Shown here: positions 11,849-30,361 of the stretch, piece by piece
How the letters are laid out: every line of letters starts with the position of its first letter
Numbering within the stretch: the stretch's first letter is position 1
Assembly (NCBI RefSeq): GCF_002797895.1
Contig: NZ_PGES01000001.1
Coordinates: 5,828,001-5,892,000, forward strand
Length of the DNA stretch: 64,000 bases
From: Janthinobacterium sp. 67
GTDB lineage: Bacteria; Pseudomonadota; Gammaproteobacteria; Burkholderiales; Burkholderiaceae_D
Reading direction: 5' to 3'
Position numbers and translations under genes: made by a program
Notes under the pieces: model-generated
The model's database searches: none
What the model saw: the letters and a program-made list of their open reading frames with translations, nothing else
What the model was told of the DNA's origin: nothing

Positions 11849-14284
11849 ATGCAAGCACAGCAAAATCAGCGCCAGGCCGCCTCCCTTACCGTCGCGTATT
11901 CCGCCGACGACGAGTTCGACCAGGACAGCATCGTCTCGCTGCATGATTTCAAGGACCTGGAAAGCAAGGCGGAAGCGCCTGCCGCCGCCATCACGCCCGA
12001 GCTGCAAGCCGAAGCACAGGCCGAGCCGGCAGTCGAAGCCGACAGCAAGGCACCCGCCGCCGAACGCCAGAAAATGGAATTGAAAGCCATCCACGAGGCG
12101 ATCGCCCGTGTGGAAGCGGAAGCGAAGGCCACCTGCGCCGCCGAAAGCCGGGCCCTGGCCGAGGCACGCGTGCGCTCGCTGGCCGAGGACCGCGCCGCCA
12201 TCGACGCGGCCGCCGCCGCCGCCGCGCAGCAAAATGCGCAGGCCGCTGAAGAAGCGATTGCCGCCAACCGCGAACGTCTCGATACCATGCGCGCCGCCGC
12301 GCAAGCGAGCGTGGCCCGCCTGGAAGCCGTCAAGCAGGAGACGGCGGAACTGCGCGCCCGCGTGGAGTCCGACAATGAAATCCGCCTGGCCGCCGAACAG
12401 CGCGCCCGCGCCGAGCAGGAAAGCCGCTTGCGCGCCAGCGAGCAGGTGGCCGTGCAGTCGGAACTGGCCGAGCAGGCCGCCCGCGCCGCCGAGGAATTGC
12501 AGGCGCAGACGGAGCAGGCGCGCCTGCAGGCCGTCGAGCGCGTCGCCGCCGTGCAGGCGGCCAAGGAAGAAATGGTGGGCATCGCCTCGGCCGACGCGCG
12601 AGTGGCCGTGCTGGCCCGCGAACGCGAGCGCCATGCGCACGGCGCGCGCCAGACGGCGCAGATGCTGGCCGAAGCGGAAAGCGAAGCGCTGGACTTGACG
12701 GTGCAGCGCGAGCGCGCCGACCAGATCGCGCTGGAATCGGCATTCAATCGCGCCGCCGCCGAAGTGCGCGCCCTGGAAGAAGCGCGCGCGCTGGCGCACC
12801 TGGAACAGGAACGCGAAGCCATCGCGCTGGCGCAGGCGGAATCGGAACGCCATGCGGCGCAGTCGCTGCGTTTGCGCCTGCAGACGGAAAAGGAATTGCG
12901 CGACGCGGCCATCCACCGCGAGCGCCTGGAAATGGTCGCCGTGGCCAGCGCGCAGGCGCGCCGCGATGCCGACGTGCGCATCCTGGCCGCCACCGAAGCG
13001 CGCATCGAGGTGGACCGCCAGCTGCGCGCCGTGGCGCTGGCCCGCGTGGCTGCCGAACAGGATGCGGAAATCGCCGGCCACGCCAAGCTGGAAGCGGAAA
13101 CAGCGGCTCTCGAAGAAACCAAGGCCCGCGAAGCGGCCGAGCAGGCCGCCGCCGTGGCCGCCGCCCGCGAACTGGAAGAGCAGCAGCGCGCCGCCAGCCT
13201 GGCGCAGGAACGCGCCGAACTGGCGCGCCAGGCGTCGGAACTGGCCGCCAGCCAGAACGACGCCGAGCAGGCCGAAGTCGATGCCGGCAAGGCGACCTTG
13301 GCCGCGCAGGCGCAAGTGTCGCAACTGGCGCAGGAAAAAGCCCGTCAGGCAGAGCAGCTGCTGCAGGCGGAGCAGGAGCGCCTGGCCGCCGAACAAGCCG
13401 CCATCACCGCCTTGAAAGAAAAGCTGGAAGCGGAAGCGCTGGCGTTTGGCGCGGCGCAGGAACGCATCGCCGCCGAAGGCGCGCAAGCGGAACTGCTGCG
13501 CGGCCAGCACGCGGCCGAACTGGCCTTGCGGGAAGCGGCGCAAAAGGAAGCGGACGCCATCCGCATCCTGATGGACCAGGCCCTCGTCGAAGGCGAACAG
13601 AAAGCCGCTGCCGCGCAAGCCGTGCAGGCGCAGGCGCGCCTGGCCGTGGAACTGGGCCAGGTGCATAGCGAGCGCGCCCGCGTGGAAGAAGACAAGGCGC
13701 AAGCGGCCGAAGCGCTGCTGGCGTCCGAGCGCGATTTCGTCGCGGCCGAACGCGAGTCGCTGGCCCTGATCGCGCAAAAACTGGTGCAGCAGCGCCAGAC
13801 CAGCAGCGCCGAAGAGCGCGCCTCGCAAGCCATCGCCGGCCGCCTGGAAGCGGAAAAGCAGGCGACGGCGGCTGCCGAAGCGCGCGCCGCCCTGGAGCAG
13901 CAGGCGCTCGACGCCATGCGCCAGCGCGAGCAGCTGGAACTGGCCGCGCAGCAGGCCGCCAGCGAGAAGCTCGACGCGCAGCAAGCCTTGCTGGCCAGCG
14001 CCCAGGCCCATGCGGCCCTGCAGCGCAAGGCGGCCGAGACGACGCGCGCGATGGCGGCTGCCAAGCAGCAGTTGCTGGAACGGGAAATGGAGCGTGCGCA
14101 GCAGCAAGAGCGCGAACTGGCCGCCCTGCGCGCCAGCCTGGAGCAGCCGCAAAGCGCGTTTTCCAGCTCATTGACCGCCGCCCGCGCGAAAGCCGAACAG
14201 GTGAGTTCGGCCAGCTTGACGCGGGAAGTGATCGAGCGGCTGACGCAGCCGAATGACGCGGGAGCCGTGTGGCGTTCGCGCTGA
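11849..14284 (+). CDS. Large Ala/Glu/Arg-rich coiled-coil protein
   Basis: An 811-residue protein almost entirely predicted to be alpha-helical coiled coil from about residue 70 to 780, built of Ala, Glu, Gln and Arg with few Gly or Pro. The first ~70 residues are acidic and less regular (SADDEFDQDSIVSLHDFKDLE), and the C-terminal 30 residues contain REVIERLTQPNDAGAVWRSR. No signal peptide, membrane segment or ATPase motif is seen, so it is not an SMC-type enzyme. Such proteins can form cytoplasmic filaments or scaffolds, but I recognise no family. The ATG at 11849 has a weak GAGAAA site. It stands alone between a structured repeat and a nested palindrome. The composition leaves long antisense frames open. 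Confidence 0.8.
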   Translation: MQAQQNQRQAASLTVAYSADDEFDQDSIVSLHDFKDLESKAEAPAAAITPELQAEAQAEPAVEADSKAPAAERQKMELKAIHEAIARVEAEAKATCAAESRALAEARVRSLAEDRAAIDAAAAAAAQQNAQAAEEAIAANRERLDTMRAAAQASVARLEAVKQETAELRARVESDNEIRLAAEQRARAEQESRLRASEQVAVQSELAEQAARAAEELQAQTEQARLQAVERVAAVQAAKEEMVGIASADARVAVLARERERHAHGARQTAQMLAEAESEALDLTVQRERADQIALESAFNRAAAEVRALEEARALAHLEQEREAIALAQAESERHAAQSLRLRLQTEKELRDAAIHRERLEMVAVASAQARRDADVRILAATEARIEVDRQLRAVALARVAAEQDAEIAGHAKLEAETAALEETKAREAAEQAAAVAAARELEEQQRAASLAQERAELARQASELAASQNDAEQAEVDAGKATLAAQAQVSQLAQEKARQAEQLLQAEQERLAAEQAAITALKEKLEAEALAFGAAQERIAAEGAQAELLRGQHAAELALREAAQKEADAIRILMDQALVEGEQKAAAAQAVQAQARLAVELGQVHSERARVEEDKAQAAEALLASERDFVAAERESLALIAQKLVQQRQTSSAEERASQAIAGRLEAEKQATAAAEARAALEQQALDAMRQREQLELAAQQAASEKLDAQQALLASAQAHAALQRKAAETTRAMAAAKQQLLEREMERAQQQERELAALRASLEQPQSAFSSSLTAARAKAEQVSSASLTREVIERLTQPNDAGAVWRSR

Positions 14285-14407: not shown

Positions 14408-15361
14408 TCAAAACTTCCTGCCCACGCCGACCAGGAACACATCGGCATCGCGGTGGTAATCCGTCACCACCCGGTTCCACACCACGTGCGCCACCCAGTG
14501 GCGGTTGACGTGGTAGCGGGCCACGGCCGACAGCAGGCCGTTCAGGCGCGCGTCGTGGCCCGGAGTGTCGCGTGCATCCCACGCCATGTACGGGCCGCCG
14601 CCCATGCCGAATTCCACTTTTTCATTGAGCGAGCGTATCAGCCACAGCTGGGCGGCCAGGCCGCGCCGGTGCGCCAGCGCCGTGCCGCCTTCGTCGATGA
14701 GGGTGGCGCTCCAGTCCACGTATTTTCCTGCCGCGCGCCGGTATTCCAGGGTGAACGGGCGCGCGGTTTCGGAGCGGAAACTGTTGACGATGGTGTGGCC
14801 CGTCGATAGGGTCAGGGTGTCGTCGTATGCCCAGTTCTGCAAGTGCAGCTTGGCGCCGGGCACGCCGTCATAGCGGTAGCCGGCGCCGATCAGCAGGTGC
14901 GTCGTGTTGTCCTTGCCGTCTGGCTTGATCCGGTTGAGCTGTGCCTGCGCATACCAGCGGTTGTCGAATTGCCAGCGCGCCTGCAGGCTGGCGATGGACC
15001 CCCAGCCATGGTCATTGGCGAAGTTGTGGAGGCCGTCGTCCGTCCTGGCCGTGTCGAAGAAAAAATAGCGGCCCACGCCGGCGCCCAGCATCAGCCCTTG
15101 CTCCACGTTTTTCGTGCGCAGCCACACCTGGCCCGCCATGCCGTCGCGGTGATGGTCTTGCGGGTGTCCCTCGTTGATGTACGACAGGCTGACGGCGCTG
15201 TAGGTGTTCACGGGCTGCGTGTAGCTGACGGCGGCGACAAAGGTGCGCTCATTGGTCGCGTTCACTTTCAGGGCGCCGGCCATGCCGGAGATATCCTGTG
15301 CCTGAGCGGACAGGGGGAGCGAGGCGGCCAGCAAGGCCAGGGCGGTGTATGGCAGGCGCAT
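14408..15361 (-). CDS. Probable outer-membrane beta-barrel protein
   Basis: A 317-residue protein with a signal peptide ending SAQAQ near residue 22. The mature part is rich in alternating aromatic/hydrophobic strands (for example FVAAVSYTQPVNTYSAVSLSYINEG and LHLQNWAYDDTLTLSTGH) and ends with the aromatic terminus VGRKF expected of barrels inserted by the BAM complex. About 12 strands could be drawn by eye. I recognise no family or substrate. It ends convergently with the coiled-coil gene across the nested palindrome. Monocistronic as far as visible. Confidence 0.75.
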   Translation of the reverse strand: MRLPYTALALLAASLPLSAQAQDISGMAGALKVNATNERTFVAAVSYTQPVNTYSAVSLSYINEGHPQDHHRDGMAGQVWLRTKNVEQGLMLGAGVGRYFFFDTARTDDGLHNFANDHGWGSIASLQARWQFDNRWYAQAQLNRIKPDGKDNTTHLLIGAGYRYDGVPGAKLHLQNWAYDDTLTLSTGHTIVNSFRSETARPFTLEYRRAAGKYVDWSATLIDEGGTALAHRRGLAAQLWLIRSLNEKVEFGMGGGPYMAWDARDTPGHDARLNGLLSAVARYHVNRHWVAHVVWNRVVTDYHRDADVFLVGVGRKF

Positions 15362-15585
15362 GACGTTTTCCAGTGACAGGTGAATACACGCTAAAGGTCG
15401 TCTGGCGGGGCATCATGCGATTGCGCAAGAATCTTGCACATTGGCTACATTTATGGACTGTATTGGCCAGAACTCAGCACAAGTGTATAAGAAAGTGAGA
15501 ATGTGTGAGGCGCGCCAATGATGAGGCGGGAGGGGAGGCGCCGGCCTGGAAGGGCTGGCCGGCGCGATGCTGCCGAATTGTGGTG

Positions 15586-15960
15586 TTACTGGCTCAAGAC
15601 GACTTTATCGGCAAAATATTCCGTCTCGCCGAAGCATTGCGTGGGCACGCCCTTGTGCTGGCTGTAGGTGACGAGAATGCGCTTGCCGGCGGCGGCCGTC
15701 AGCTGCTTCGCCACCTCTTCATCGCGCACGCTGAACTGGAATTTTTCCGGGATGGTGCCCGGCAGCGCCGTCAGCAGCAATTCCCCCTCCCATGTCTTGC
15801 AGATCCAGCCCCGCTTGGAGAACTTCTGCAGGTAGCCCGCCCGTTCGCCTTCCGAGTACGAGAAGCTGAGGGCCATCCACGTGTAGGCTGCCAGCAGCAG
15901 GAAGCCGGCCACGAGGAAGATGGCGAAGGCGAAGGTGACTTTTTTGGTCGTAGGGGTCAT
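15586..15960 (-). CDS. Single-span membrane-anchored hypothetical protein
   Basis: A 124-residue protein with one N-terminal hydrophobic helix (about 9-30) and a small extracytoplasmic domain with the blocks YSEGERAGYLQKFSKRG and CKTWEGELLL. Similar short proteins are widespread in Gram-negative genomes without a known function. It starts 24 bases after the terA stop, on the same strand, and is therefore probably the last gene of the Ter operon, though no good ribosome site is seen. A GC-rich hairpin GCGCCGGCC/GGCCGGCGC at 15538-15565 lies 20 bases past its stop and may end the transcript, but it lacks a T-run. Confidence 0.75.
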   Translation of the reverse strand: MTPTTKKVTFAFAIFLVAGFLLLAAYTWMALSFSYSEGERAGYLQKFSKRGWICKTWEGELLLTALPGTIPEKFQFSVRDEEVAKQLTAAAGKRILVTYSQHKGVPTQCFGETEYFADKVVLSQ

Positions 15961-15984
15961 GGTTGGGTTGTCTAGGTAAAAGGA

Positions 15985-17229
15985 TCAGTCCTTGCGGCCG
16001 GCTTTCCAGTTCAGGCCGAAATTGTAGCGTTCGTCCATGGCCTGGTGCGCCGTGATTTTACCTTGGCCGCCGAAGTATTCCACCAATTTTGTCACCTGCA
16101 GGTTGCCGCCGTGGTTTTCCAGCATGGCGATGGCGCACATGGCGTGCTGGCTGTCGCTGTCGAGGCGCACTTCCACGGTCGGCTGGCCGGGAATCTCGAT
16201 CGTCACGACGCCATCGGTGGCGGCCCAGTTCGGCACGCCTTCGTAGATGAAGGCGTAGACGAGCACGCGCTTGATCTGGTCGAAATGGGTGCCGTTGATG
16301 AAGATGTTTTCGCCGCTGCTGATGCTGCCCGTGCGGTCGTCGCCTTCCAGGTGGATGTACGGCGGACGGTCGTAGGCGCCCCAGCTGTTGCCCAGCGCCT
16401 GCACGGCGCTTTTGCTGCCGTTGCTCATCTCGAACAGGCAGCCGATATCGAGGTCGATGCCGCCCGAACGGCCGGCCGGCTTGTTGAACAGTTTGCCGAG
16501 GAAGCCCGTGTCCAGTTTCGAGGCGGGCGCCTGGCCTTGCGACGCGTTCTGGTTCCAGTTCAGGTTGACCCGGATGCGGCCATAGCCGCCGCTGTCGCGC
16601 TTGTCGAGCGAAATCTTGTCGCCGCGTTTTTCCAGGCGAATTTTCGACAGCGAGATCTTATTTGCCGGCGGCGGGGCCGCTGGCGTGGGCACCGGGATCG
16701 GTGCTGGCGCAGGGGAAGACGAAGCGGCCTCGCTGCCGCCAAAGTGCTTCAGCAGGGCCGCCAGGCCGCCCGCGAAACCCTGGCCCACGGCGCCGAAGCG
16801 CCAGCTGCCGTCGCGGCGATACAGTTCGCCGATGATGACGGCTTTTTCATCCTGGAAGTCCGTGCCCGTGAAGGCGAACGTGGCTGCCTGGCCCAGCGCC
16901 ATGCTGGAGTTGCCCAGCGCGCGCATGCTGCCATGTTCCGTCGCCGCGGTAAACACCAGCTTGTCGATCGAGGCGGGCAGGCGCGACAGGTCGACCTTGA
17001 AGGTGGAGCGGGGGCCGTTCAGCTCCACCGTGACGGCGTTGTCCGGCGCGCTTTTCTGGTTGTAGAACACCATGTAGCGGTCGTCCGACAGCTTGCCTGC
17101 CGCATCGACGCCGAAGCAGCTGACGTCCACTTCCATCGAACCCGATGCGATATCGAGGGTGACGGCAAACGGGCCGTTCAAGCCCAGGTCAGCCAGTTTG
17201 CCTTTTTGTCCGCGTGTGAAATTGGTCAT
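15985..17229 (-). CDS. terA: TerA-type tellurium resistance protein (TerD domain plus C-terminal TerA domain)
   Basis: A 414-residue cytoplasmic protein. Residues ~1-165 form a TerD domain with the family pattern ...DSRYMVFYNQ-like block (here SDDRYMVFYNQKSAPDN) and the ending FGAVGQGFAGGLAALLKHFGG. A Pro/Ala linker (about 170-190) follows, then a C-terminal domain with LDIGCLFEMSNGSKSAVQALG, HLEGDDRTGSISSGENIFING and WAATDGVVTIEIPG, as in TerA. TerD domains bind calcium at the membrane face. The start at 17229 overlaps the CitE-like gene stop by four bases. It is the downstream Ter-domain gene of the operon. Confidence 0.9.
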   Translation of the reverse strand: MTNFTRGQKGKLADLGLNGPFAVTLDIASGSMEVDVSCFGVDAAGKLSDDRYMVFYNQKSAPDNAVTVELNGPRSTFKVDLSRLPASIDKLVFTAATEHGSMRALGNSSMALGQAATFAFTGTDFQDEKAVIIGELYRRDGSWRFGAVGQGFAGGLAALLKHFGGSEAASSSPAPAPIPVPTPAAPPPANKISLSKIRLEKRGDKISLDKRDSGGYGRIRVNLNWNQNASQGQAPASKLDTGFLGKLFNKPAGRSGGIDLDIGCLFEMSNGSKSAVQALGNSWGAYDRPPYIHLEGDDRTGSISSGENIFINGTHFDQIKRVLVYAFIYEGVPNWAATDGVVTIEIPGQPTVEVRLDSDSQHAMCAIAMLENHGGNLQVTKLVEYFGGQGKITAHQAMDERYNFGLNWKAGRKD

Positions 17230-18212
17230 GGTCGTGCAATCCCTTCGTCGCTTGAGAGTTGAGTCAATGTGGTAGTGGGCAGGTGCGCGGGCGCCGCGTC
17301 GGCCGCATGGCGGATGCCGAACAGGCGCGCCTGCTCGATGATGCGCAAGGCCCAGCTGCTGTGCGTGGCCACTTCGCACATCGATTCCTGCATGCGGAAC
17401 ACGGCCGGGCTGTCCGGGTCGATGATGCGCAGCGCCAGTTCGATGTCGGACTGCGCCACCTGGTAGTGGCGCTCGATCTGCGGCACCTGGTCCGGGTGGA
17501 TGGCCGTCTTGGCGATCATGCCGTGTGCCATGTCCTGCGCCACTTCCACGTCGAGCCACCCGCCCTGCGACAGGTGCTCGAAGACGGGCGCCGTCAGCTG
17601 GAAGCCGTGCGGCTTGAAGGTGGTGACCAGGCGGCCGATGACCTGGCCCAGCGGCGTCTGGTAAATGGTGCCGCTGGTGGGGCGGCGCAGTCCCAGCAGG
17701 GCCAGCAGATCATTGCCGCCGATGCGCAGGGCCAGGATGCGGCGCCGCACTTCCGGCGCCGACAGCTCGATGCGGAACTGCTTCATTTCCTCGTCGTCGA
17801 ACACTTCCGCCGTTTCCAGCGTCGGCATGAGCCAGTGGTGCGTGTGGCGCACCAGCTCGAAATACGCGCTGAAATTGCTGCGCGTGGATTTCGGCAGCAC
17901 GAAGCCGCTCAATTTGTCGGCGCCGGGCATGGCCAGCACGCGCGCCAGCACTTCGAGATTGCGCACGCGCACGAAGCGCAAGGTATCCGAGTCGTCGCCC
18001 ATGTTTTGCAGCGCCAGCGACAGGTTGAACAGCGCGTAACTGAGGTCGCGTTCCGCGATGGCGTCTTCGGTGCAAAGAATGACCGAACGCAGATGGCTGA
18101 ATTTGTCGCCATTGGCGATCGCCAGCAAGTCCTTGTGCGTGGTCGGCACATACATGGAGGCGCCCAGCGCCGCCTTATGTTCGCTTTGTGGGTGTAGGGA
18201 GTTGTTATCCAT
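17226..18212 (-). CDS. HpcH/HpaI (CitE-like) aldolase/lyase of Ter operon
   Basis: A 328-residue TIM-barrel protein of the citrate-lyase-beta-like family. VPTTHKDLLAIANG, SVILCTEDAI (a metal/substrate loop), FVRVRN and LPKSTR follow the barrel order. Further on are METLETAEVF-type and LRIGGNDLL, and GMIAKTAIHPDQV near the end carries the typical KxxIHP motif. In Ter loci this enzyme is one of the predicted biosynthetic steps for an uncharacterised nucleoside-like metabolite (Anantharaman, Iyer and Aravind 2012). It starts inside the StiP gene end with an eight-base overlap (ATGGATAA) and ends overlapping terA by four bases. Confidence 0.88.
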   Translation of the reverse strand: MDNNSLHPQSEHKAALGASMYVPTTHKDLLAIANGDKFSHLRSVILCTEDAIAERDLSYALFNLSLALQNMGDDSDTLRFVRVRNLEVLARVLAMPGADKLSGFVLPKSTRSNFSAYFELVRHTHHWLMPTLETAEVFDDEEMKQFRIELSAPEVRRRILALRIGGNDLLALLGLRRPTSGTIYQTPLGQVIGRLVTTFKPHGFQLTAPVFEHLSQGGWLDVEVAQDMAHGMIAKTAIHPDQVPQIERHYQVAQSDIELALRIIDPDSPAVFRMQESMCEVATHSSWALRIIEQARLFGIRHAADAAPAHLPTTTLTQLSSDEGIARP

Positions 18213-19311
18213 CGACTGCGCTCCTGATAAGGGCGACCGCCTGGTAAGGCAGCGCCGGTTCTACTGTGACGGGTATGGCTTTTTCCTGCGCCAGAAGCAG
18301 CAAATGTGCCACGTCCGGCGCATTCGTGTCGCGCACGATCAGGCGCTCGGGCACGCGGCGCAGCAGCACGCGCGTCGCTTCACCGATGCCCGGCTTGATC
18401 AGGTTGATGTCGCTGATGCCGTATGCCTGCTGCGCGGCGGCCATGTAGGCTTGCGAGCGGGCCGCCATCGCCGGCGCATCGCTCGCTTCGGCCAGCGGCA
18501 CGCCGCTGCTGGCGGCAATGGCCATGGCGTCGGCCACCAGGCCGTCGGCGAAAGCGCGCGACTGGTCGTGCTGCTCGAACTGCGCGTAGTACACGCAGCC
18601 GTGGAAGTCGTCGGGACCGATGGCATCATTGAGCACGGAGCGGCTCACCAGGCCCGAGACGGTGGCGTTCAGGATGCTCGACGGGATCAGGTAGTCGCTG
18701 GCCGAGGCGGCGCAGGCGGCCGTGCCGGCCAGGTCGGACAGCACGAACAGGCCGCCGTCGATGGCCGTGCCATGCGCGGCATTGAAGTCGTTGACGGTCT
18801 GGCGCAGTTCGCGCGAGATCACGCCCTTGCCCGTCCAGCCGTCGACGAAGACGAGGGAAGCGTCGCCATGGCCCTGTGCCAGGATGTGCCGCAGGGCGTT
18901 CGCATCGATGCCGCGGTCGCGGATGATGGAGACGGAATAGTGGCTGCAGTCGCGCTGGAACACCTGGCGCAGCAAGTGGCCCAGGATCACGCCCACGGGC
19001 GTGCCGGCGCGCGCCAGCGATACCAAGGTGATGGGCCCGGTGCGACGCGCCGCGATCAGGGCGGCCAGGCGCAGGCAGTCGCGCGCCATCTGCAGGCGAT
19101 TGGCCGCAAACGCGCTCTGGAACAACGCCAGGTAGGCGGGCGAGGGCAAGGATTCCGGCGACAGCATTTCGCTGTAGTGGCGCTGGCCAGACTGGATCAG
19201 ACGCTCTTTTTCGGCCAGGTCGAGGATGGGCTCGAGCGCCATCGGCGTGAGCAGGAACTCCACGTCTTCCTGGCGGTAGCTGCCGCTGAAATGCTGCGTG
19301 CCTTCGGTCAT
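18205..19311 (-). CDS. StiP-family protein with C-terminal PELOTA domain (Ter operon)
   Basis: A 368-residue protein. The N-terminal two thirds open with GSYRQEDVEFLLTP and contain LVSLARAGTPVGVILGHLL and LVFVDGWTGKGVISRELR; these are the signatures of the StiP family, described both as a stress-induced cysteine protease and as a phosphoribosyltransferase-like fold. The last ~80 residues (RERLIVRDTN-like block, VPERLIVRDTNAPDVAHLLL) look like the PELOTA RNA-binding domain often fused to it in Ter loci. The start at 19311 overlaps the HAD gene by ATGA; the stop overlaps the CitE-like gene. Biochemical activity is not settled, so no symbol is given. Confidence 0.85.
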   Translation of the reverse strand: MTEGTQHFSGSYRQEDVEFLLTPMALEPILDLAEKERLIQSGQRHYSEMLSPESLPSPAYLALFQSAFAANRLQMARDCLRLAALIAARRTGPITLVSLARAGTPVGVILGHLLRQVFQRDCSHYSVSIIRDRGIDANALRHILAQGHGDASLVFVDGWTGKGVISRELRQTVNDFNAAHGTAIDGGLFVLSDLAGTAACAASASDYLIPSSILNATVSGLVSRSVLNDAIGPDDFHGCVYYAQFEQHDQSRAFADGLVADAMAIAASSGVPLAEASDAPAMAARSQAYMAAAQQAYGISDINLIKPGIGEATRVLLRRVPERLIVRDTNAPDVAHLLLLAQEKAIPVTVEPALPYQAVALIRSAVDG

Positions 19312-20060
19312 AGCGCCGCCACCGTGAGTGCCGCCAGCTGGGTACCGTTGGGGATGATGGCGTAGTCGCAGGCAGCCATGAAGCGCGCGTCCGAACGGCT
19401 GTCGCCCATGCCGAAGCTGACGATGGGGCCGTGTTCGGCTTCCAGTTCCGCGCGCAGGTAGGCCACGGCGCGCGCCTTGTTCAAGGTCTTCGGCAGCACG
19501 GCCAGGTTGTTGCCGTTGCGGTGGATGAAGTAGTCGGAACCTTCCGCCGCGATCCACTGCCGCAGCACCTGCTCTTCGATGTCGGCCAGGCGCTCGCCGC
19601 GCGCTTCATGGTCCTTGACGACGATGTAGAACGGCGTGTCGTAATCCTCGATCAGGCGCGCGCGCGAAGGCATGCCCGTCCTGGTCTGGAAATCGTCGAT
19701 GATGCGCATCGCGTCCCGCAGGCCGGGCAAGGCCGTCTGCATGTCGTTCTGCATCAGGGCCAGCCAGCCAGCGTCGAGCGCACCACCCGGCTGCAGCACG
19801 ATGCCGCCGTAATCGAGCACGCTGTAGCTGGTAAACGGCAGGTCGACGCGGCGGAAGGCGTCGCCATTTCTCGCCGTGGCGGGTATCAGGGTCATGCCGC
19901 TTTGCGCGAACTCGAAGAAGGCGCGCTGGCGCGCCGTCGTAAACGAGCAGGCGTCGCCATTTTTCAAATAGGCGGCCGCTTGCAGGTCGGTCTCGCCCGG
20001 GCATTTTTTCGGGGTCTGGAACAGTGTGTCGTCCAGGTCAACAAACAGGAATTTCTTCAA
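19308..20060 (-). CDS. HAD-family phosphatase of Ter operon
   Basis: A 250-residue Cof/sucrose-phosphatase-like HAD hydrolase. Motif I is DLDDT at residues 8-12, motif II is PATARN, and motif IV is GMGDSRSD with the metal-binding Asp residues. The segment between motifs II and IV (about 85-190) is a C2 cap that would set substrate range. In Ter operons the HAD enzyme is predicted to dephosphorylate the pathway intermediate. The first 23 bases overlap the phosphoribosyltransferase gene end, and the stop overlaps the StiP gene start by ATGA. Cytoplasmic. Confidence 0.9.
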   Translation of the reverse strand: MKKFLFVDLDDTLFQTPKKCPGETDLQAAAYLKNGDACSFTTARQRAFFEFAQSGMTLIPATARNGDAFRRVDLPFTSYSVLDYGGIVLQPGGALDAGWLALMQNDMQTALPGLRDAMRIIDDFQTRTGMPSRARLIEDYDTPFYIVVKDHEARGERLADIEEQVLRQWIAAEGSDYFIHRNGNNLAVLPKTLNKARAVAYLRAELEAEHGPIVSFGMGDSRSDARFMAACDYAIIPNGTQLAALTVAAL

Positions 20061-21195
20061 TTGTGGTCTCTGACTGAAAGTGGAACAGGCGGCCGTTCAA
20101 CTGGCCGGCGAGTTGCATGAGGGCCGGGCTGGCCGGGGTTTCATGGCAGATGAAAACGTGCTGGTACTGGCCAGGCGCCACGTTGTACAGGTAATTGGCG
20201 ATGCCTTCGCCGTAGTTGTCGTCGCAGTGGACGATGTGGCCGACGGAGCCCCATGACAAAATCGGCGAGCGCGTGGTCGATTGCACCACGACGTTCTTGC
20301 CCAGCGCTTCGAGTTCGCGCGCCAGCAGGAACGACGGGTGCATGAATTCGCCCGTGCCCAGCACGAGCACGGAGTCGCCTGCGCCGATTTCCTGCGCCAG
20401 CCGCACGGCCAGGCCTTGCGGCGGCGTCAGGGCGCGTCCCACGCCGATGCGGCCGAACGCGGGACTGGCGCCCCGTTCCGCATTCGCCTCGAAGCGCTGC
20501 GCGCTGGCCGCCACGGGAGCCGGCGCAGCGCCGGCCTGGAAGGCATACTGGCCGGAGAGCGCCGCGCCTATGCTGGTGGGCAGGCCGAAACGCTCGCTCA
20601 AGCCCGCATTGGCGGCCTGGCCCATGAAGTTGGTGATCACGCCCAGGTGCAGCTTTTCCAGCTGCGGATAGCGCGCGCGGCACACTTGCACCAGGTTGGC
20701 GAAGGTGTTGCCGGTCGACGCTTCATCGTCGATCAGCACCAGGCTGCTGGCCGTGGAAAACAGGGCGCTGGCCGCGTCCGACAAATGCAAAAACTGGCGC
20801 GGCGCGTGGCTGTGCGATTCCTCGAATTCGAAGAAGGGCACCGTGCCCACGCGGTAGCGCGAGCTGTGCAAAAACAACGCTTTTCCGTTCGGGTTGGCGC
20901 GCAGCCACGCTTCGAACACGCCCTGGCCCAGGCCGACGGCCGTTTCCGCCATGGCGATGAAGACGACGGGACCGGGCAGGCTGGGAGGGATCTGCGCGGC
21001 CAGGTCGTCGTGGATGGTTTGCATGGCGCGCGGCGTGACGGGCCAGTGTTTGCCCAGCACTTTTGAAAGGAACAGGAAGCCGCGCTTGGCGTTGGCGCGC
21101 GCGGCAAAGCCGATCAGCCAGTCCAGCGGAAAGCGCGCCTCGTCCACTTTCAAGGTCAGCTCGCCCGTGGGCATCTGCTGCTTGACGAGGTTCAT
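20038..21195 (-). CDS. Phosphoribosyltransferase with TRSP domain (Ter operon)
   Basis: A 385-residue protein. The PRPP-binding loop VLIDDEASTGNT lies near residues 153-164 and is preceded by a type-I PRTase-like core containing VVFIAMAETAVGLGQGVFE. The C-terminal ~130 residues, including VLVLGTGEFMHPSFLLARELE and QSTTRSPI, match the TRSP domain found next to Ter-type PRTases. It probably attaches ribose-5-phosphate to an unknown base, the first committed step of the proposed nucleoside-like metabolite (family knowledge plus inference). The start overlaps the ATP-grasp stop by ATGA. An Ala-rich stretch near residues 222-235 joins the two domains. Confidence 0.9.
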   Translation of the reverse strand: MNLVKQQMPTGELTLKVDEARFPLDWLIGFAARANAKRGFLFLSKVLGKHWPVTPRAMQTIHDDLAAQIPPSLPGPVVFIAMAETAVGLGQGVFEAWLRANPNGKALFLHSSRYRVGTVPFFEFEESHSHAPRQFLHLSDAASALFSTASSLVLIDDEASTGNTFANLVQVCRARYPQLEKLHLGVITNFMGQAANAGLSERFGLPTSIGAALSGQYAFQAGAAPAPVAASAQRFEANAERGASPAFGRIGVGRALTPPQGLAVRLAQEIGAGDSVLVLGTGEFMHPSFLLARELEALGKNVVVQSTTRSPILSWGSVGHIVHCDDNYGEGIANYLYNVAPGQYQHVFICHETPASPALMQLAGQLNGRLFHFQSETTIEEIPVC

Positions 21196-22229
21196 GGCAG
21201 CTCCACGGCGTAGGCGGCTTCGCCCACGCGCATGCCTTCGGCGATGGCGGGCACGGCGAGCTTGTCAAAGCCCTGGTCGAAACCTGCCAGCGCCAGGTAG
21301 GGCAAATTCGGGCCGGCCGCGCAAGCCATGCCGATGCCGCCCGACATGCGCGGGTTGATCTCCAGCAGCGCCAGGCCGTTCGCGCCTTCGCGGAACTGGA
21401 TGTTGAAGACGCCATTCAGGCGGTAGTCGCGCGCCAGTTTCTCGCAGGCCGCCAGCAAGTCGGCGCGCAGCTCGATCAGCTGGCCGCTGCCGCCCCCGTG
21501 CAGCTTCTTGCGCGGCACGGCGCAAACGAGCGTGCCCTGGTCTGCCACGCAGTCGGCGCTGTATTCGTGGCCATCGAGGTATTCCATCAGCAGCAGGGTC
21601 TTGAACGATGCCATCTGCGCCAGGCCGTTGCGCAATTCCTGCGCATTGATCTGGTAGGCGGCGCCGGCCAGCAGCAGCTGGGCGCTGGTGCGCTCCTCAT
21701 CGAGAATGGCAAAGCCCAGGGCATACACGGATTCGGACGGCTTGATGCACAGCTTGCGATGCAGCGGGCGCAGCTCGGTGTAGGCGGCGTCGTATTCTGC
21801 AATGGTGGTCACGGCGCGGTAGTCGGCCGGGCGCGCCATCGGCAGATCGAGGCCGTCGCAGAAGCGCGCCTTGTCGTGCATCAGGGTCAGGGTCTCTTCG
21901 CTGGCCACGCTGAGCACGCGCGTGCCGATGGCGGCGAAGCGCGCGCTGGCGCTGCCGATCAGGCCCGCTTCCTTGCCGGGCCAGAAAATCGTGATGCCCC
22001 GCTCGCGGCAAAATTCCAGGCACCACTCGACATAATCGAGACCCGTGAGGCCTGACGGCTCGACCGCATATTCGTGGGCCGCCAAAAAGGCGGCAGCGTG
22101 CGCATTCGTATTGCTGCACACGATGTGATAGCGGGGCACGCCGTTTGTCGCGGCCATGTCGGCTTCGCGGATCAAACGCATGGCCGTGCCGACCGAGGAA
22201 AATGTTTTGTTGAACCAGACTCTTTGCAT
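21192..22229 (-). CDS. ATP-grasp ligase of Ter operon
   Basis: A 345-residue ATP-grasp enzyme. After an N-terminal Rossmann-like part (1-110), KLCIKPSESVYALGFAI forms the ATP-binding loop, LLMEYLDGHEYSADCV the hinge, and LLEINPRMSGGIGMA supplies the metal-binding Glu and Asn. Members form amide-like bonds between a carboxylate and an amine using ATP. In Ter loci it is part of the conserved biosynthetic core with PRTase, HAD, StiP and CitE-like proteins. A terminator-like hairpin lies only ~20 bases ahead of its start at 22229, and it may therefore be a control point. Confidence 0.9.
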   Translation of the reverse strand: MQRVWFNKTFSSVGTAMRLIREADMAATNGVPRYHIVCSNTNAHAAAFLAAHEYAVEPSGLTGLDYVEWCLEFCRERGITIFWPGKEAGLIGSASARFAAIGTRVLSVASEETLTLMHDKARFCDGLDLPMARPADYRAVTTIAEYDAAYTELRPLHRKLCIKPSESVYALGFAILDEERTSAQLLLAGAAYQINAQELRNGLAQMASFKTLLLMEYLDGHEYSADCVADQGTLVCAVPRKKLHGGGSGQLIELRADLLAACEKLARDYRLNGVFNIQFREGANGLALLEINPRMSGGIGMACAAGPNLPYLALAGFDQGFDKLAVPAIAEGMRVGEAAYAVELP

Positions 22230-22244
22230 GTACGGTGACCGGGT

Positions 22245-22275
22245 AAAAGAAAAGGCGCGCGCAGGTGCGCGCGCG
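22245..22275 (-). terminator. Terminator-like hairpin between AIM24 gene and ATP-grasp gene
   Basis: On the minus strand GCGCGCGCACCTGCGCGCGC folds into a GC-rich hairpin followed by CTTTTCTTTT. It sits inside the Ter gene series, immediately upstream of the ATP-grasp start, so it should stop most transcripts coming from AIM24 or act as an attenuator. Confidence 0.65.
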
Positions 22276-22323
22276 GGGAGTGTAGCTAGAAAAACTTAAC
22301 CTGGCCTTAGAAAAACGCCAGCC

Positions 22324-22352
22324 CAGACCTGCTGCGCATCGTGGACGGTTTT
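22324..22352 (-). repeat. Miniature copy of the AAAACCG...GCAGGT element, minus strand
   Basis: The minus strand reads AAAACCGTCCACGATGCG then CAGCAGGTCT, close to the miniature copy at 7341-7367 and to the ends of the long copies A and B. It lies just past the AIM24 stop. Confidence 0.45.
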
Positions 22353-22368
22353 GGCGGGCGTTTGGGGA

Positions 22369-23088
22369 TCAGCCGGCTTTGCCCGACGCCGTCCACTTCA
22401 GGAAGGCGTCGCGGTTGCGCGAGCAAATAAATACTTTGCCCGAGCCGGAAAAGCGCAGCACGATGCCTTCGCCGCTGGTGACGCTATTGACGATATTGCC
22501 GAGGAAACCGCCGATGCCGCCGCCACTGCCCGAGCCGCCGCCCGTGGTCACGGAAATCTCGTATTTCAGGCTGTTGTCCCAGCAGACCACGTGGGAATTG
22601 TCGATCACGACGTCCTTGCCCGGCTCGACGTCGAGCTGGAACATGGAGCCGAAGCCCGACACCACCACTTGCCCCGTGCCGGCCGTCTCCATGACGAAGA
22701 AGCCGCCCGACTGGGCGAACAGGGCGTTGCCGATGCTTTGCGTGCGCACCTTCATTTCCGTGCCCGAGGTGGCGGCGACAAAGGCGCCGTCGTTGAGCAG
22801 GTACTGGCGCGCGCCCACGTCGACCACTTCGATGGCGCCCGGCAGGGTGGGCGAGAGCAGGCAGTCGCCGCTGCCGCGCACCGCTTCGATATGCTGCTGG
22901 AAGAACGATTCGCCATTCGCGAAGCGGCGCATGATGGCGCTGCCCAGGCCGCCCGTCATCTTGCCCTTCAAGTCGAGCGCCGTCTCCATCATCACCATCG
23001 CATCGGATTCGCAATAGATGGTTTCACCCTGCTTCATGCTGACGTGCAGGAATGGATCGACGTCGCCCGTGACACTAAATACTGGCAT
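22369..23088 (-). CDS. AIM24 / TIGR00266 family protein
   Basis: A 239-residue protein of the AIM24 beta-helix family, usually a single-domain protein of unknown role. It contains VSMKQGETIYCESDAMVMME near the start, then GGLGSAIMRRFANGESFF, the family hallmark, and a Gly/Ser-rich loop (GGGSGSGGGIGGFLGN) near the C-terminus. No signal peptide. In Ter loci AIM24-like genes are recurrent companions of TerD, suggesting a part in the same membrane-associated complex (inference). Upstream lies structured element B and terD; downstream lie miniature element D and a terminator-like hairpin. Confidence 0.88.
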   Translation of the reverse strand: MPVFSVTGDVDPFLHVSMKQGETIYCESDAMVMMETALDLKGKMTGGLGSAIMRRFANGESFFQQHIEAVRGSGDCLLSPTLPGAIEVVDVGARQYLLNDGAFVAATSGTEMKVRTQSIGNALFAQSGGFFVMETAGTGQVVVSGFGSMFQLDVEPGKDVVIDNSHVVCWDNSLKYEISVTTGGGSGSGGGIGGFLGNIVNSVTSGEGIVLRFSGSGKVFICSRNRDAFLKWTASGKAG

Positions 23089-23164
23089 GATAAATCTCCA
23101 AAAAAAAGCCGCCTGATCTGTGCAGGCGGCAGTAATGATATGACATTAAGATAATTCACCTCGG

Positions 23165-23277
23165 AAAACCGTAGCGAGCAAGCTCGATTTCGGGTTAAGT
23201 CGCGCAGCTGTACGGAGGTACGGGACCGCCGAGGTAGCGAGCAACGCAGGCCCGAAAGTGAGCGGCGCAGCAGGTTT
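23165..23277 (+). repeat. Structured intergenic element, copy B
   Basis: It begins AAAACCGTAGCGAGC and ends GCGCAGCAGGTTTA, like copy A. TTTCGGG (23188-23194) pairs perfectly with CCCGAAA (23251-23257) and encloses CGGAGGT-ACGGG-ACCGCCG, an inner hairpin with one mismatch. It separates terD from the AIM24 gene. It is antisense to the operon when read from AAAACCG. Confidence 0.65.
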
Positions 23278-23289
23278 AACGAGCGTGAA

Positions 23290-23865
23290 TTAGGCGTTGA
23301 CGCCGAACGAACGTGCGAGGGGGCCCAGGCCGCCGTTGAAGCCCTGGCCGATGGCCTTGAACTTCCATTCGCCGTTGTAGCGGTAGATTTCGCCGAAGAT
23401 CATCGCCGTTTCCGTCGAGCTGTCTTCGGACAGGTCGTAGCGGGCGATTTCTTTTTCGCCTTCCGCGTTCAGGCAACGGATGAAGGCTTTCGAGACCATG
23501 CCGAAGTTCTGGCGGCGCGCATCGGCGTCGTGGATGGTGACGGTGATGCTGATGCGGTCGATGTCGTTTGGCACGCGGGTCAGGTCGATTTCGATGCGCT
23601 CATCGTCGCCTTCGCCTTCGCCCGTGGTGTTGTCGCCCGTGTGGACGACGGAGCCATCGGTCGACTTCAGGTTGTTGTAGAAGATGAAGTCAGAGTCGCC
23701 ACGGACTTTGCCGTCGCTTTTCAGGAGGAACGCGCTACCGTCAAGGTCGAAGGTGGCGCCGTCCGTCGAACGAGGATCCCAGCCGAGGCCGACGATGATC
23801 TTCTTCAGGTTCGGTGCTTCCTTGCTCAGGTTGACGTTGCCGCCTTTTTGCAAACTGATTGCCAT
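23290..23865 (-). CDS. terD: TerD-family calcium-binding stress protein
   Basis: A 191-residue TerD protein of standard length. It opens [20 protein letters not shown] and contains the acidic calcium-binding segments [17 protein letters not shown] and [19 protein letters not shown], ending with [33 protein letters not shown]. TerD domains bind calcium tightly and are thought to work at the inner face of the membrane with TerC. The start at 23865 has a strong AAAAGGAG site. Upstream is TerC, with a hairpin GGGGG-CGGAA-CCCCC at 23949-23963 between them; downstream is element B. No TerB or TerE/Z paralogue is present in the window. Confidence 0.95.
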
Positions 23866-23967
23866 GTGGTGCTCCTTTTCAGTAAATAACTCAAACATGC
23901 CTGCATGGGATGAGCGCGCATGGCGCTCGTGCCATTACTCTTTCAATTGGGGGCGGAACCCCCGATT

Positions 23968-25050
23968 TCAAGCTTGTGCCGCGTGCCGTTTGCGATAACG
24001 CAAGGATGACCACAGCGAGACCAGGATGAAAGCCACGCCCGACAGGCCCGTGAACCACTCCGGAATATGGTATTTGACGGACGCCAGCATGATCAGGGCG
24101 AGGATGCCGATCGCATAATGGGCACCGTGCTCGAGGTAGACGAATTCGTCCAGGGTACCCTTGTGCACGAGGAAGACCGTCATCGAACGCACGAACATGG
24201 CGCCGATGGCCAGGCCCAGCATGATGACGACGACGTCGTTGGTGATGGCGAAGGCGCCGATCACGCCGTCAAAGCTGAACGAGGCATCCAGCACTTCCAG
24301 GTACAGGAAGCCGCCGATACTGCCGCGTGCCACGCTTTTTACCAGGTCGCCATTGCCGTTGCGGGCTGGCGCGGCGCCTTCTTCTTCGTCATCCTGCAAG
24401 TCCGGTTCGCCTTCTTCCAGCAAGCCGCTGATCCAGTTCACGCCGATGTAGACGGCGATGCCGACGATGCCCGACGCGAGCACGCTGTATTTTTCATCGA
24501 CCGGCCCCATGGCCACGCAAGCGGCCACGGCGCCCATGGTGATCAGCACGGCCAGGCTTTCGGTGCCCAGCGCGTTGACTTTTTCCTCGGCCCAGCCCAG
24601 CCAGTGCAATTCCTTCTCGTCGTCGAACAGGAAGTTCAGGAAGACCAGCAGCAGGAAAGCGCCGCCGAAGGCCGCCACTTGCGCATGGTTGTCCGTCAGG
24701 TGCTTGGCATACACGTCCGGCGTCGTGGTGGCCATGGTCCACACGTCGACCAGGCTCAGGCCCGTGGCGACGGAAACGATGACGAGCGGGAACAGCAGCC
24801 GCATGCCGAAGACGGCCACGAGGATACCGACCGTCAAGAACAGTTTTTGCCAGAATTCATTCCAGTGGCGCAAGACCGAGGCGTTGACCACGGCATTGTC
24901 GAACGACAGCGACACTTCCATGATGCCCAGCACGCCCGTGATCCACAGCGCCTGGATCATGCCCGGCATGCCGCCATGGCTGTAACCCCACCAGCCCGAC
25001 ACCGCCATCAGGACAAAAGTGACTAAAAAGGAAATTCTGAAATGCCGCAT
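23968..25050 (-). CDS. terC: TerC/DUF475-family integral membrane protein
   Basis: A 360-residue membrane protein with about nine hydrophobic segments. The conserved acidic intramembrane motif occurs twice: MEVSLSFDNAVVNASVL near residues 44-60 and LEVLDASFSFDGVIGAFAI near 253-271. This is the TerC/DUF475 pattern, and such acidic pairs are thought to handle metal ions. A charged loop near residues 217-232 (EEGEPDLQDDEEEG) faces the cytoplasm, where TerD domains are expected to dock. It is the first gene of the minus-strand Ter series and is divergent from the YuiD-type gene. Confidence 0.9.
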   Translation of the reverse strand: MRHFRISFLVTFVLMAVSGWWGYSHGGMPGMIQALWITGVLGIMEVSLSFDNAVVNASVLRHWNEFWQKLFLTVGILVAVFGMRLLFPLVIVSVATGLSLVDVWTMATTTPDVYAKHLTDNHAQVAAFGGAFLLLVFLNFLFDDEKELHWLGWAEEKVNALGTESLAVLITMGAVAACVAMGPVDEKYSVLASGIVGIAVYIGVNWISGLLEEGEPDLQDDEEEGAAPARNGNGDLVKSVARGSIGGFLYLEVLDASFSFDGVIGAFAITNDVVVIMLGLAIGAMFVRSMTVFLVHKGTLDEFVYLEHGAHYAIGILALIMLASVKYHIPEWFTGLSGVAFILVSLWSSLRYRKRHAAQA

Positions 25051-25298
25051 GAGTACCCCGTTGCAAGTATGAAAGACGTTTGATTATCCGCGCCGCTGTG
25101 CGCGCCGCACTCAGTGTTGATATACGTCAATTGTTGTATATGCCATGATTTTATATGATCGCCGGCGGCGGCGGCGTTTTTATGGCCTGGCAATGGACAG
25201 TTCTGCTGGCGCGGCTGATCTGCGATAATTGCGGCGCGCCTGTCTGGCTGCCGCAGCCCCTGACACACTCTCGACATATATATAAGAAGGAATACCCC

Positions 25299-25724
25299 GT
25301 GGATATCGCTTACCTCGTCACGCCCCTGATCGCCTGGATCCTGGTCGGACCGATCAAATTCCTGATCAACAGTGCCCGCACGCGGCAATGGGCGTTCGGC
25401 CTGGTCGGCAATGGCGGTTTTCCCAGCAACCATAGCGCCGTCGTGTCCAGCATGGCAACGCTGATCGCCTTGCGCGAAGGCATCGGCCATCCCGCCTTCG
25501 GCGTGGCCGTGACCTTGGCCTTCATCGTCATCATCGACGCCAACAGCCTGCGCCAGCACGTGGGCAAGCAGGCTGCCGCCATCAACCGCCTGGCCAAGGA
25601 AGCGGGCAGCGCCGCGCACAAGACCTTGCGCGAGCGCATGGGCCACACGCTGGTGGAAATCGCCGGCGGCCTGTGCACGGGCGTGGCCATCGGTTTCCTG
25701 ATCAACACCGTGTTTGCCCGGTAG
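25299..25724 (+). CDS. YuiD/DUF212 divergent PAP2-family membrane protein
   Basis: A 141-residue membrane protein of the divergent PAP2 (YuiD) family. GNGGFPSNHSAVVSSMATLIALREG corresponds to the Ser-His part of the phosphatase site, and SLRQHVGKQAAAINRL supplies the second His. Three to four hydrophobic segments. The GTG at 25299 was chosen because AAGAAGGAA lies just upstream and the sequence before it is not protein-like. Lipid-phosphate or undecaprenyl-phosphate processing is possible, but activity is unproven for the family. It is divergent from terC and followed by a strong terminator. Confidence 0.88.
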   Translation: MDIAYLVTPLIAWILVGPIKFLINSARTRQWAFGLVGNGGFPSNHSAVVSSMATLIALREGIGHPAFGVAVTLAFIVIIDANSLRQHVGKQAAAINRLAKEAGSAAHKTLRERMGHTLVEIAGGLCTGVAIGFLINTVFAR

Positions 25725-25772: not shown

Positions 25773-25963
25773 GTTTCAGGGCGTAAAAACTACGTTTCAT
25801 CCATTGAATAAAGCATTACAGGAAACGGCCGATTGACATGCCCGGATGCGCTCATGGATACTTTGGCGCTTGTGGTTTTAATAAAAATAAATGCTTGCTA
25901 TCGCCTGCAGCCTTATCCGGGCCGCCGGGACGGTCGTGGCGCTATCTATCCGGAGAAATACCC

Positions 25964-27136
25964 ATGTTGCGCAAAACCCTGTTTGTTCTGGCAATCGCTT
26001 CTGCCCTGACCGCCTGCGGCAAAGAGTCCAAAGATCCCGGCAAGGGCGGCAAGGATGGCAAGGAACAGGCGGGCGCCGCCGTCAATCTGCTCGTCTCTCC
26101 GGAAGACTTGCTGACCATCCAGAGCAATGCGCTGGCGTCCGGCCCCGTCATCACCGGTTCCGTGCAGCCCGAGCGCAACGCGGACTTGCGCGCCGAAGTG
26201 TCGGCCGTCGTGATCCAGGTACTGAAGGAAAATGGCGAAATCGTCAAACGGGGCGACGTGCTCGTGCGCCTGGACGAAACGGCCATCCGCGACAGCCTCA
26301 ATTCGGCCGAGGAAGCGAGCCGTGCTTCGAGCCAGGTGCTGGAACAGTCCGAACGCATGTTCCAGCGCATGAAAACCCTGCGCGCCTCGGGCATGACGTC
26401 GACGCAGGCGCTGGAAGACGCGGAAATCCGCCGCAACAATGCGCAAAGCGATCTGTCGGCCGCGAAAAGCCGCGCCGCCCAGGCCCGCCAGCAGTTGCAG
26501 CGCACCCTCGTGCGCGCGCCGTTCGACGGCATCGTGAGCGAGCGCAAGGTCTCGAATGGCGATACGGCGCAAGTCGGCAAGGAATTGATCAAGGTCATCG
26601 ATCCGACCAGCATGCGCCTCGAAGGCCTGGTGTCGGCCGACAAGATCGGCGTCGTCAAGGTGGGCCAGCCCGTGCTGTTCCGCATCAATGGCTATCCGGG
26701 CCAGGATTTCGCGGGCAAGGTGCGCCGTGTCGATCCTGCCGCCAACGCCGTCACGCGCCAGGTGGCCGTGCTGGTCGATTTCAACGACAAGGAACAGCCG
26801 CGCGTGGCGGGCCTGTACGCGGAAGGGCGCATCGAGACGGAAACCGTCAGCGCGCTGATGATCCCCGACTCGGCCCTAGTGAAGGCGGGCGACGTCACGT
26901 ACACGTGGAAAGTCAAGGACAAGGCCTTGCATAAAGTGAATTTGCGCATCGGCGCGCGCGACGTGCGCACGGGCCAATGGGAAGTGCAAAGCGGCCTGGC
27001 CAGCGGCGATACCGTGCTGCGCACGCCGGGCTCGACCTTCAAGGATGGGCAGAAAGTGGAATTGACGGCAGCCAAAGCCGTGCCCGCCGCCGCCGTGGCC
27101 AGCAGCAGCGTCGCCGTTGCCGGTAAAGGAAACTAA
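25964..27136 (+). CDS. RND efflux periplasmic adaptor lipoprotein (system 1)
   Basis: A 390-residue membrane fusion protein. The N-terminal lipobox is LTAC with Cys18 as lipidation site. It has the biotinyl-lipoyl/hairpin arrangement: VSAVVIQVLKENGEIVKRGDVL, a coiled-coil hairpin about residues 105-190, then TLVRAPFDGIVSERKVSNGDTA, and C-terminal beta-barrel domains. The ATG at 25964 follows CGGAGAAAT; the frame is open upstream but not protein-like. It links the RND pump to an outer-membrane channel. The pump gene follows after three bases. No regulator gene lies beside it. Confidence 0.92.
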   Translation: MLRKTLFVLAIASALTACGKESKDPGKGGKDGKEQAGAAVNLLVSPEDLLTIQSNALASGPVITGSVQPERNADLRAEVSAVVIQVLKENGEIVKRGDVLVRLDETAIRDSLNSAEEASRASSQVLEQSERMFQRMKTLRASGMTSTQALEDAEIRRNNAQSDLSAAKSRAAQARQQLQRTLVRAPFDGIVSERKVSNGDTAQVGKELIKVIDPTSMRLEGLVSADKIGVVKVGQPVLFRINGYPGQDFAGKVRRVDPAANAVTRQVAVLVDFNDKEQPRVAGLYAEGRIETETVSALMIPDSALVKAGDVTYTWKVKDKALHKVNLRIGARDVRTGQWEVQSGLASGDTVLRTPGSTFKDGQKVELTAAKAVPAAAVASSSVAVAGKGN

Positions 27137-30100: not shown

Positions 30101-30361
30101 ACCATCACCTCGACGATTCTGACCCTGCTGGTCGTGCCGACCTTCTATGACAGCATCGAGATCGCCCGTGATGGCGCCGTGGCCAAGTTCCACCGCCGCG
30201 CCGCGCGCATGCCCGTGGCTTTTGCCCTGATCCTGACCTTGCTCGAGTGCGTGCTGACCCTGCTGCTGGTGCGCTTCGTCTACCGCATGCTGAAGAAGGC
30301 CGTGCTGTTCCTGATGGGACGCCGCGCGCCGAAAGCGGTGCCGGTCGGCCTGCAAAAGTAA
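27140..30361 (+). CDS. RND-type efflux permease (system 1) with extra C-terminal helix
   Basis: A 1073-residue HAE1-type proton antiporter. N-terminal FSIKRPTATIVLILAMM begins TM1. The proton-relay Asp pair is D400-D401 in GVLIDDAIVVREN of TM4. Two large periplasmic loops lie near 35-335 and 560-865. After the normal end of TM12 (LTLLVVPTFYDSIE) about 60 further residues follow, including a hydrophobic stretch MPVAFALILTLLECVLTLLLVRFVY that should be a thirteenth helix. Substrate unknown. It forms an operon with the upstream adaptor but has no outer-membrane factor of its own; the one at 30543 may be shared. Confidence 0.93.
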   Translation: MFLSDFSIKRPTATIVLILAMMCVGLLALKKLRVNQNPDVEVPFIVVSIPYPGASPDTVEREVVNRLEKSLQSISGVTEVNSDSNEGAASIFLKFSFNTNLIEASDNIRNAIAAVRYKLPTEMREPILQRIDPAAEPIMQLALSSNSQSHAEISRLAEDVLSDRFRTVDGVALVNVGGSLKRELSVLLRAEKLREYNVSVSDVVTALRNQNTNAPVGKVRGTLDEKSIRLVGRIESPSDFEKVVIKRRGDEIVRLAQVATIEDGFAEVNSLSMRSGKPNVGISITRVRDASTVSVANKIRDMVAEINKTLPKGTILQVTRDGGENAQHSLNNVIESLVLGAVLTIFVVYAFLNSWRSTLITALSLPTSVIAAFIAVWLCGFTLNFMTLLGLSLAIGVLIDDAIVVRENIVRHMQMGKDRRTAALEGTAEIGMAVAATTFSIIAVFIPVAFMPGISGEWFRPFALTVTCSVLVSLGISFTLDPMLSAYWGDPVEEHSAPKKGIGRVLEKFNHWFDHQADRYGRVIAWALHHRRWMAVIAFGSLVGAIVLHATHGGTSFLPASDSGNLMINVRTPSSSSIEYSRLKLEAAAVLARTLPETKDTNSSINAGGGRVYVDIGKRNTRKRSAKEIAVELREKMSRLVGAEYVVQDDLSNGSQKPIQVEFTGPDSRKLMEITNAYMDKLRAIPGAVDVGLSEQDPKNELQIELNRGLANSMGISVNDAAQSLRVAFAGVEVGDWVDPTGETRDVAVRLHPDDRVASENIERLPISVTGTSQMVPLDQIATITMGKGPSGIEHKNGKRTITVSANAQGRSNGEVTSDAMKLANSIDFPPGYGLALGGAGQDQQELFTEMLIALVMGIGLMYLILVMQFGSFTAPVAVMMSLPLSLIGVVVALVITNNTLNLMSFIGIIMLMGLVAKNAILLLDAARKREEEGHGREDALMYAGRMRLRPILMTTFALIAGMFPVALGLGEGGEFYRPLAIAIIGGTITSTILTLLVVPTFYDSIEIARDGAVAKFHRRAARMPVAFALILTLLECVLTLLLVRFVYRMLKKAVLFLMGRRAPKAVPVGLQK

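Follow-up and report, generated by a model that had tools for sequence, protein, structure and literature searches.

The prediction of a Ter-dependent biosynthetic module dates from 2012, and papers that take it up assign to the module, in the excerpts available, the synthesis of a nucleoside-like metabolite (PMC8115787, PMC4633105). Another model, as excerpted, leads from signal synthesis by phosphoribosyltransferase (PRTase) and HAD enzymes to sensing by TerD and a response by TerC (PMC7824862). The TerC proteins MeeF and MeeY are associated, in the available part of the source, with manganese export and the metal loading of exported proteins (PMC12096827), and an excerpt on Klebsiella terC reports effects on tellurite, zinc, manganese, and phage (PMC12054061). 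This study analyzed a ter locus of Janthinobacterium sp. 67 that lies in a window of 64,000 nucleotides (nt), the whole stretch under analysis, which corresponds to C1:5828001-5892000 of the 6.4-Mb genome. The locus is a real and intact member of the known system in a new chromosomal setting. We propose, with a probability of roughly 0.7, that its core (terD, AIM24, the enzyme genes, and TerA) is the known Ter-dependent module with its predicted functions, which the genus ancestor acquired between a resident terC and a resident gene for a membrane protein. The genes of the locus are as follows.

23968-25050, minus strand: terC of the DUF475 type (353 bits for Pfam DUF475, 60 bits for Pfam TerC; 530.6 bits over the cut-off of NCBIfam NF010614)
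23290-23865, minus strand: terD (Pfam TerD 291 bits)
22369-23088, minus strand: AIM24 family protein (Pfam AIM24 188 bits; 133 bits over the cut-off of NCBIfam TIGR00266)
21192-22229, minus strand: ATP-grasp enzyme (Pfam ATPgrasp_Ter 148 bits)
20038-21195, minus strand: PRTase_2-TRSP protein (Pfam PRTase_2 198 bits and TRSP 71 bits)
19308-20060, minus strand: HAD phosphatase with a TTG start (Pfam Hydrolase_3 28.8 bits, cut-off 20.9)
18205-19311, minus strand: StiP-PELOTA protein (Pfam StiP 331 bits and PELOTA_1 113 bits)
17226-18212, minus strand: CitE-like C-C lyase (Pfam C-C_Bond_Lyase PF15617 303 bits)
15985-17229, minus strand: terA (118 bits for the Pfam TerD domain; relatives have long TerA homologues)
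15586-15960, minus strand: gene of a 124-aa one-span membrane protein (no Pfam or NCBIfam match; homologues in the family)

The Pfam scores quoted are for matches above the curated cut-off, and the starts preferred from the translations were 17229 for terA, 19311 for StiP, and 23865 for terD. Pfam families were found for all nine genes named in the original prediction, which was made from the DNA of this stretch, and they bore out both the order and the single strand. The ATP-grasp, PRTase-TRSP, HAD, StiP-PELOTA, and CitE-like genes, alongside the TerD-domain genes, constitute a Ter-dependent biosynthetic module; its family set was defined by Pfam names, the 2012 description being known through citing papers. 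The full enzyme set claimed earlier is therefore present and is that of the published Ter module. Outside the genus, the gene order from the ATP-grasp enzyme to the lyase was identical in all 19 module loci fetched, with the ATP-grasp gene of one locus (L050) cut by a contig end. Strong lyase matches (E <= 1.3e-86) were identified in 41 of 195 family genomes, 13 in the genus and 28 outside it, and the PF15617 lyase was the only match to this family in the genome of the window.

To describe the state of the enzymes, homologues were aligned after leaving out those below 80 bits or below 80% of the query, which gave 16 to 27 rows per protein. The DDExxTGxT loop of the PRTase was invariant in 21 of 21 rows and the HAD motif residues in 27 of 27, and those of the ATP-grasp enzyme (19 of 19) and the Arg/Glu/Asp motif residues of the lyase (24 of 24) were likewise kept. 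These residues are the catalytic ones of the enzyme families; the active sites, whose integrity the original prediction had made a point to check, kept their motif residues in every enzyme alignment. The five junctions from the ATP-grasp gene to terA overlap by 4, 23, 4, 8, and 4 nt, in accordance with the predicted six-gene overlap of 4-23 bases. Eight further genus loci, each from a different genome and with starts mapped from those of the window, had identical overlaps except for 8 or 11 nt at the StiP/lyase junction. Their retention in all nine genus loci supports the suggestion of a co-translated enzyme set, and the six overlapping genes are probably made as a coupled set, as judged from their sequence. 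Because the genus keeps the enzyme set and its overlaps unchanged in nine genomes, apart from the junction mentioned, and one strong lyase copy is present here, deletion combined with metabolomics is feasible. PADLOC returned no match for nine proteins, Rfam returned four weak matches with none at the gathering score, and a plasmid collection gave four partial matches, each within the terD part.

The chromosomal site of the locus is bordered by the following genes.

11849-14284, plus strand: 811-aa protein rich in Ala and Glu, without a Pfam match, on the membrane-gene side of the conserved site
25155-25724, plus strand: DUF212 (divergent PAP2) protein, beyond terC (Pfam 110 bits)
25838-27136 and 27140-30361, plus strand: membrane-fusion and RND pump proteins (Pfam HlyD and ACR_tran)

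Outside the genus, 32 of the 47 family genomes that carry the membrane gene have a same-strand terC no more than 3 kb upstream, and 29 of these 32 close pairs lie in one chromosomal block. Of the 32 pairs, 29 have the DUF212 gene on the far side of terC; the membrane-fusion and pump genes came next in all 20 longer block loci, and 20 of the 29 have the 811-aa gene at the opposite end, toward the membrane gene. The same borders enclose terD in L084 and terC and terD in L070 and L095; in genome G003 (L066, 2793-7545), no ter gene at all separates the membrane gene from the DUF212 gene. In the window, the borders enclose terC, terD, AIM24, and the whole module. In genome G144, the closest by TerC (79%), the site lacks the module (L082), and a module lies elsewhere (L060).

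Both Pfam and NCBIfam place the window TerC in the TerC/DUF475 integral membrane family. A tree built from 33 TerC proteins grouped it with 11 TerCs encoded next to the membrane gene (support 97/95), and the second TerC of the same genome (L009) fell into a separate group (100/100); the rows of G001 and G009 were labeled 'cassette' in this tree, though terC is less than 3 kb away from the membrane gene in both. The gene content, order, overlaps, motifs, shorter forms of the site, and place in the TerC tree are the observations on which our explanation is based. The module would have come to lie at this fixed site, between the resident DUF475-type terC and the resident membrane gene, in the genus ancestor, and its entry there is the simplest reading. 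Several points weigh against it. One TerC row adjacent to the membrane gene (L071) fell outside the group in the tree, a weak branch (85/75) joins the other 25 such rows with the window TerC, and the 'cassette' label of row L103 was assumed and unchecked. That the event was an insertion, and not a loss in many genera, is itself our reconstruction, and the predicted hairpins after terD and AIM24 would speak against one transcript. The site comparison removes one candidate gene from the list of Ter members and parts the resident TerC from the module.

A further gene at the site (14408-15361) encodes a 317-aa protein without a Pfam match that appears outer-membrane-like by sequence; homologues at the same place were observed in L023, L025, and L082 only.

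We further analyzed the membrane gene, which the original prediction had proposed as a Ter member not previously described. The open reading frame at 15586-15960 is a real gene because homologues occur in 60 of 195 family genomes, and its nearest named relatives are from Janthinobacterium. In all 13 genomes of the genus, terC lies about 8 kb upstream of it on the same strand. The gene was present in 72 of 349 genomes of an order sample and in 6 of 349 of a phylum sample, all six within the order, and it looks like a Burkholderiales gene that is often beside terC in this family. None of the 19 module loci outside the genus had it, several of these loci stopping at contig ends; linkage with terA or the enzyme genes is thus not kept beyond the genus, an outcome that the original prediction had named as refuting. 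Moreover, terC was absent within about 1.5 kb of the membrane gene in all 28 loci checked outside the family, a part of the 67 non-family order genomes with a match. On the basis of these findings and the linkage with terC in 32 of 47 genomes, we rejected the membrane gene as a Ter member. It is probably a neighbor, and its product may be co-transcribed with terA but act outside the module.

It is possible, although we hold it to be somewhat less probable than the contrary, that the membrane protein is instead a true partner of TerC, such as a periplasmic OB-like domain that helps to load metal into exported proteins, and would thereby count with the TerC part of the Ter system. The close upstream position of terC in the 32 family genomes agrees with such a partnership, as do the association of the gene with the presence of TerC (53, 7, 33, 102; Fisher p 2e-17 without a correction for kinship) and three genomes (G001, G009, and G019) that keep the neighborhood away from the usual flank genes. 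The shared position of 29 of the 32 pairs in one conserved block may nevertheless explain them. Eight of the 47 genomes carry TerC elsewhere (two of them, G108 and G189, at contig edges and counted as unlinked), and seven have no DUF475 TerC; the latter and the 28 terC-free loci outside the family weaken the candidacy of the gene as an obligate TerC partner. The model of the protein comprises one long helix followed by an OB-like order of elements (which fits that of a five-stranded b-b-b-a-b-b barrel), with a mean predicted local distance difference test score of 67.8. The best Foldseek matches of this model were OB-fold single-stranded DNA-binding proteins (best E 1.5e-3), with none at E <= 0.001. 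Residues C54 and C109 were invariant in all 24 relatives chosen. Some UniRef entries name this protein family '6-phosphogluconate dehydrogenase', a misnaming that is incompatible with a 124-aa one-span protein.

Under our preferred reading of a known module beside a resident neighbor gene, the functions proposed for the module follow the published prediction, and its product is predicted to be a nucleoside-like metabolite. The ATP-grasp and CitE-like enzymes would build an acyl or amide precursor, to which the PRTase would attach ribose-5-phosphate with phosphoribosyl pyrophosphate as the donor, and the HAD enzyme would then strip the phosphate. The StiP-PELOTA protein may act on the product or carry it to RNA. 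Near the membrane, TerD and TerA may bind the product or a metal, which they would link to metal export by TerC under envelope, metal, or phage stress. A literature search on the module and its domains, at the level of titles and excerpts, found no study that names the product; the original prediction, which assigned none, agrees with this literature.

StiP-PELOTA is the most interesting point of the locus; its fold and its RNA partner would be the most telling about the pathway. We regard it as unlikely that StiP is a cysteine protease with a Ter protein or a signal carrier as its substrate and stands outside the nucleoside chemistry. The Pfam name of PF11202 favors a protease, as do C239 in all 25 close rows and H237 in all 26 homologues; across these 26, however, one alignment contained no invariant cysteine, and thus no invariant catalytic one, mainly on account of one row (L118) without C239. 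As to the fold, the Foldseek matches of the whole model were L7Ae-type proteins and pyridoxal phosphate-dependent enzymes, none at E <= 0.001, a sequence search of the PDB gave nothing but L7Ae-type proteins for the whole protein and two chance-level matches for the N-domain of StiP, and hhalign of StiP against a PF00156 cluster (PRPP-synthetase-like) gave nothing, the PRTase of the operon itself scoring 50% there. The StiP domain may weakly resemble phosphoribosyltransferases. We offer as a speculation of low probability that StiP, instead of being a protease, is a second PRTase-fold enzyme of a divergent kind, joined to an L7Ae-like RNA-binding domain, such that the Ter pathway ends on RNA. 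If true, a structured RNA would receive the metabolite or its base, by transfer or exchange, during stress.

Two terminator-like hairpins were found between the genes.

23108-23130, minus strand: hairpin in the terD/AIM24 interval (8-bp stem and U8; -15.7 kcal/mol, z -3.2)
22255-22274, minus strand: hairpin in the AIM24/ATP-grasp interval (8-bp stem; -17.8 kcal/mol, z -5.6)

Because the region has 18 terminator-like sites versus 9.4 (standard deviation 3.6) in shuffles, a single site means little; for the predicted terD/AIM24 hairpin, conservation would be the stronger point. No sigma-70-type promoter match was found at 15300-25300 versus 1.8 expected, and the gap between terA and the membrane gene is 24 nt in the window and 24 to 128 nt over the nine genus loci. 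The view that the genes from terC to the membrane gene form one operon and one functional unit agrees with the same strand, the short gaps, the same arrangement of terC and the membrane gene in 13 of 13 genus genomes, and the hairpin-free terA/membrane-gene interval in nine of nine loci, but hairpins at terD/AIM24 (nine of nine) and AIM24/ATP-grasp (three of nine) make one transcript doubtful, relatives carry the module and the membrane gene apart, and we give this view little chance.

The locus itself contains neither TerB nor a second TerD-type gene. The same genome carries a TerC-TerD-AIM24-TerD cassette (L009, 6195-9552), a locus with TerD, TerA-like, and TerD-vWA genes (L008, 8771-12011), and two TerB-domain genes (G000:C1:933225-933578 and C1:6007133-6007450) outside the three ter loci; the labels 'TerE/Z-like' and 'TerF-like' were coined in the present analysis. 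The suggested compact form without TerB and TerE/Z therefore holds for the locus but not for the genome. AIM24, proposed earlier as a partner of the Ter locus, is present by its Pfam match, and it accompanies the module in 3 of the 19 loci outside the genus (L047, L059, and L060); the branching of the AIM24 tree was not resolved. Its position beside TerD is already published and is not new, as PMC5822837, in the part available, credits it to Anantharaman 2012 ('group I').

The closest described system is the module of Anantharaman, Iyer and Aravind (2012), which, as represented in citing papers, has in common with the window the families ATPgrasp_Ter, PRTase_2, TRSP, StiP, PELOTA_1, C-C_Bond_Lyase, HAD, TerD domain, and AIM24. 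The module of the window differs in being flanked by a resident terC of the DUF475 type and by an unrelated membrane gene, and no TerB, TerY, TelA, or vWA gene was seen within its locus. The ter locus of Klebsiella pK2044 likewise combines Ter genes with a predicted biosynthetic set, which the excerpted source arranges in two opposite-strand operons, a terXYW set of 14 genes and terZABCDEF (PMC8115787); the window locus, in contrast, is chromosomal, lies on one strand, and has no terZ, terB, terE, or terF within it. Compared with L7Ae/L30e RNA-binding proteins, the L7Ae-like domain is here fused to StiP. The window TerC belongs to the same family as MeeF and MeeY of Bacillus subtilis, as far as the excerpt describes them (PMC12096827); unlike them, it is of the DUF475 type and matches the YkoY model TIGR03716 only below the cut-off.

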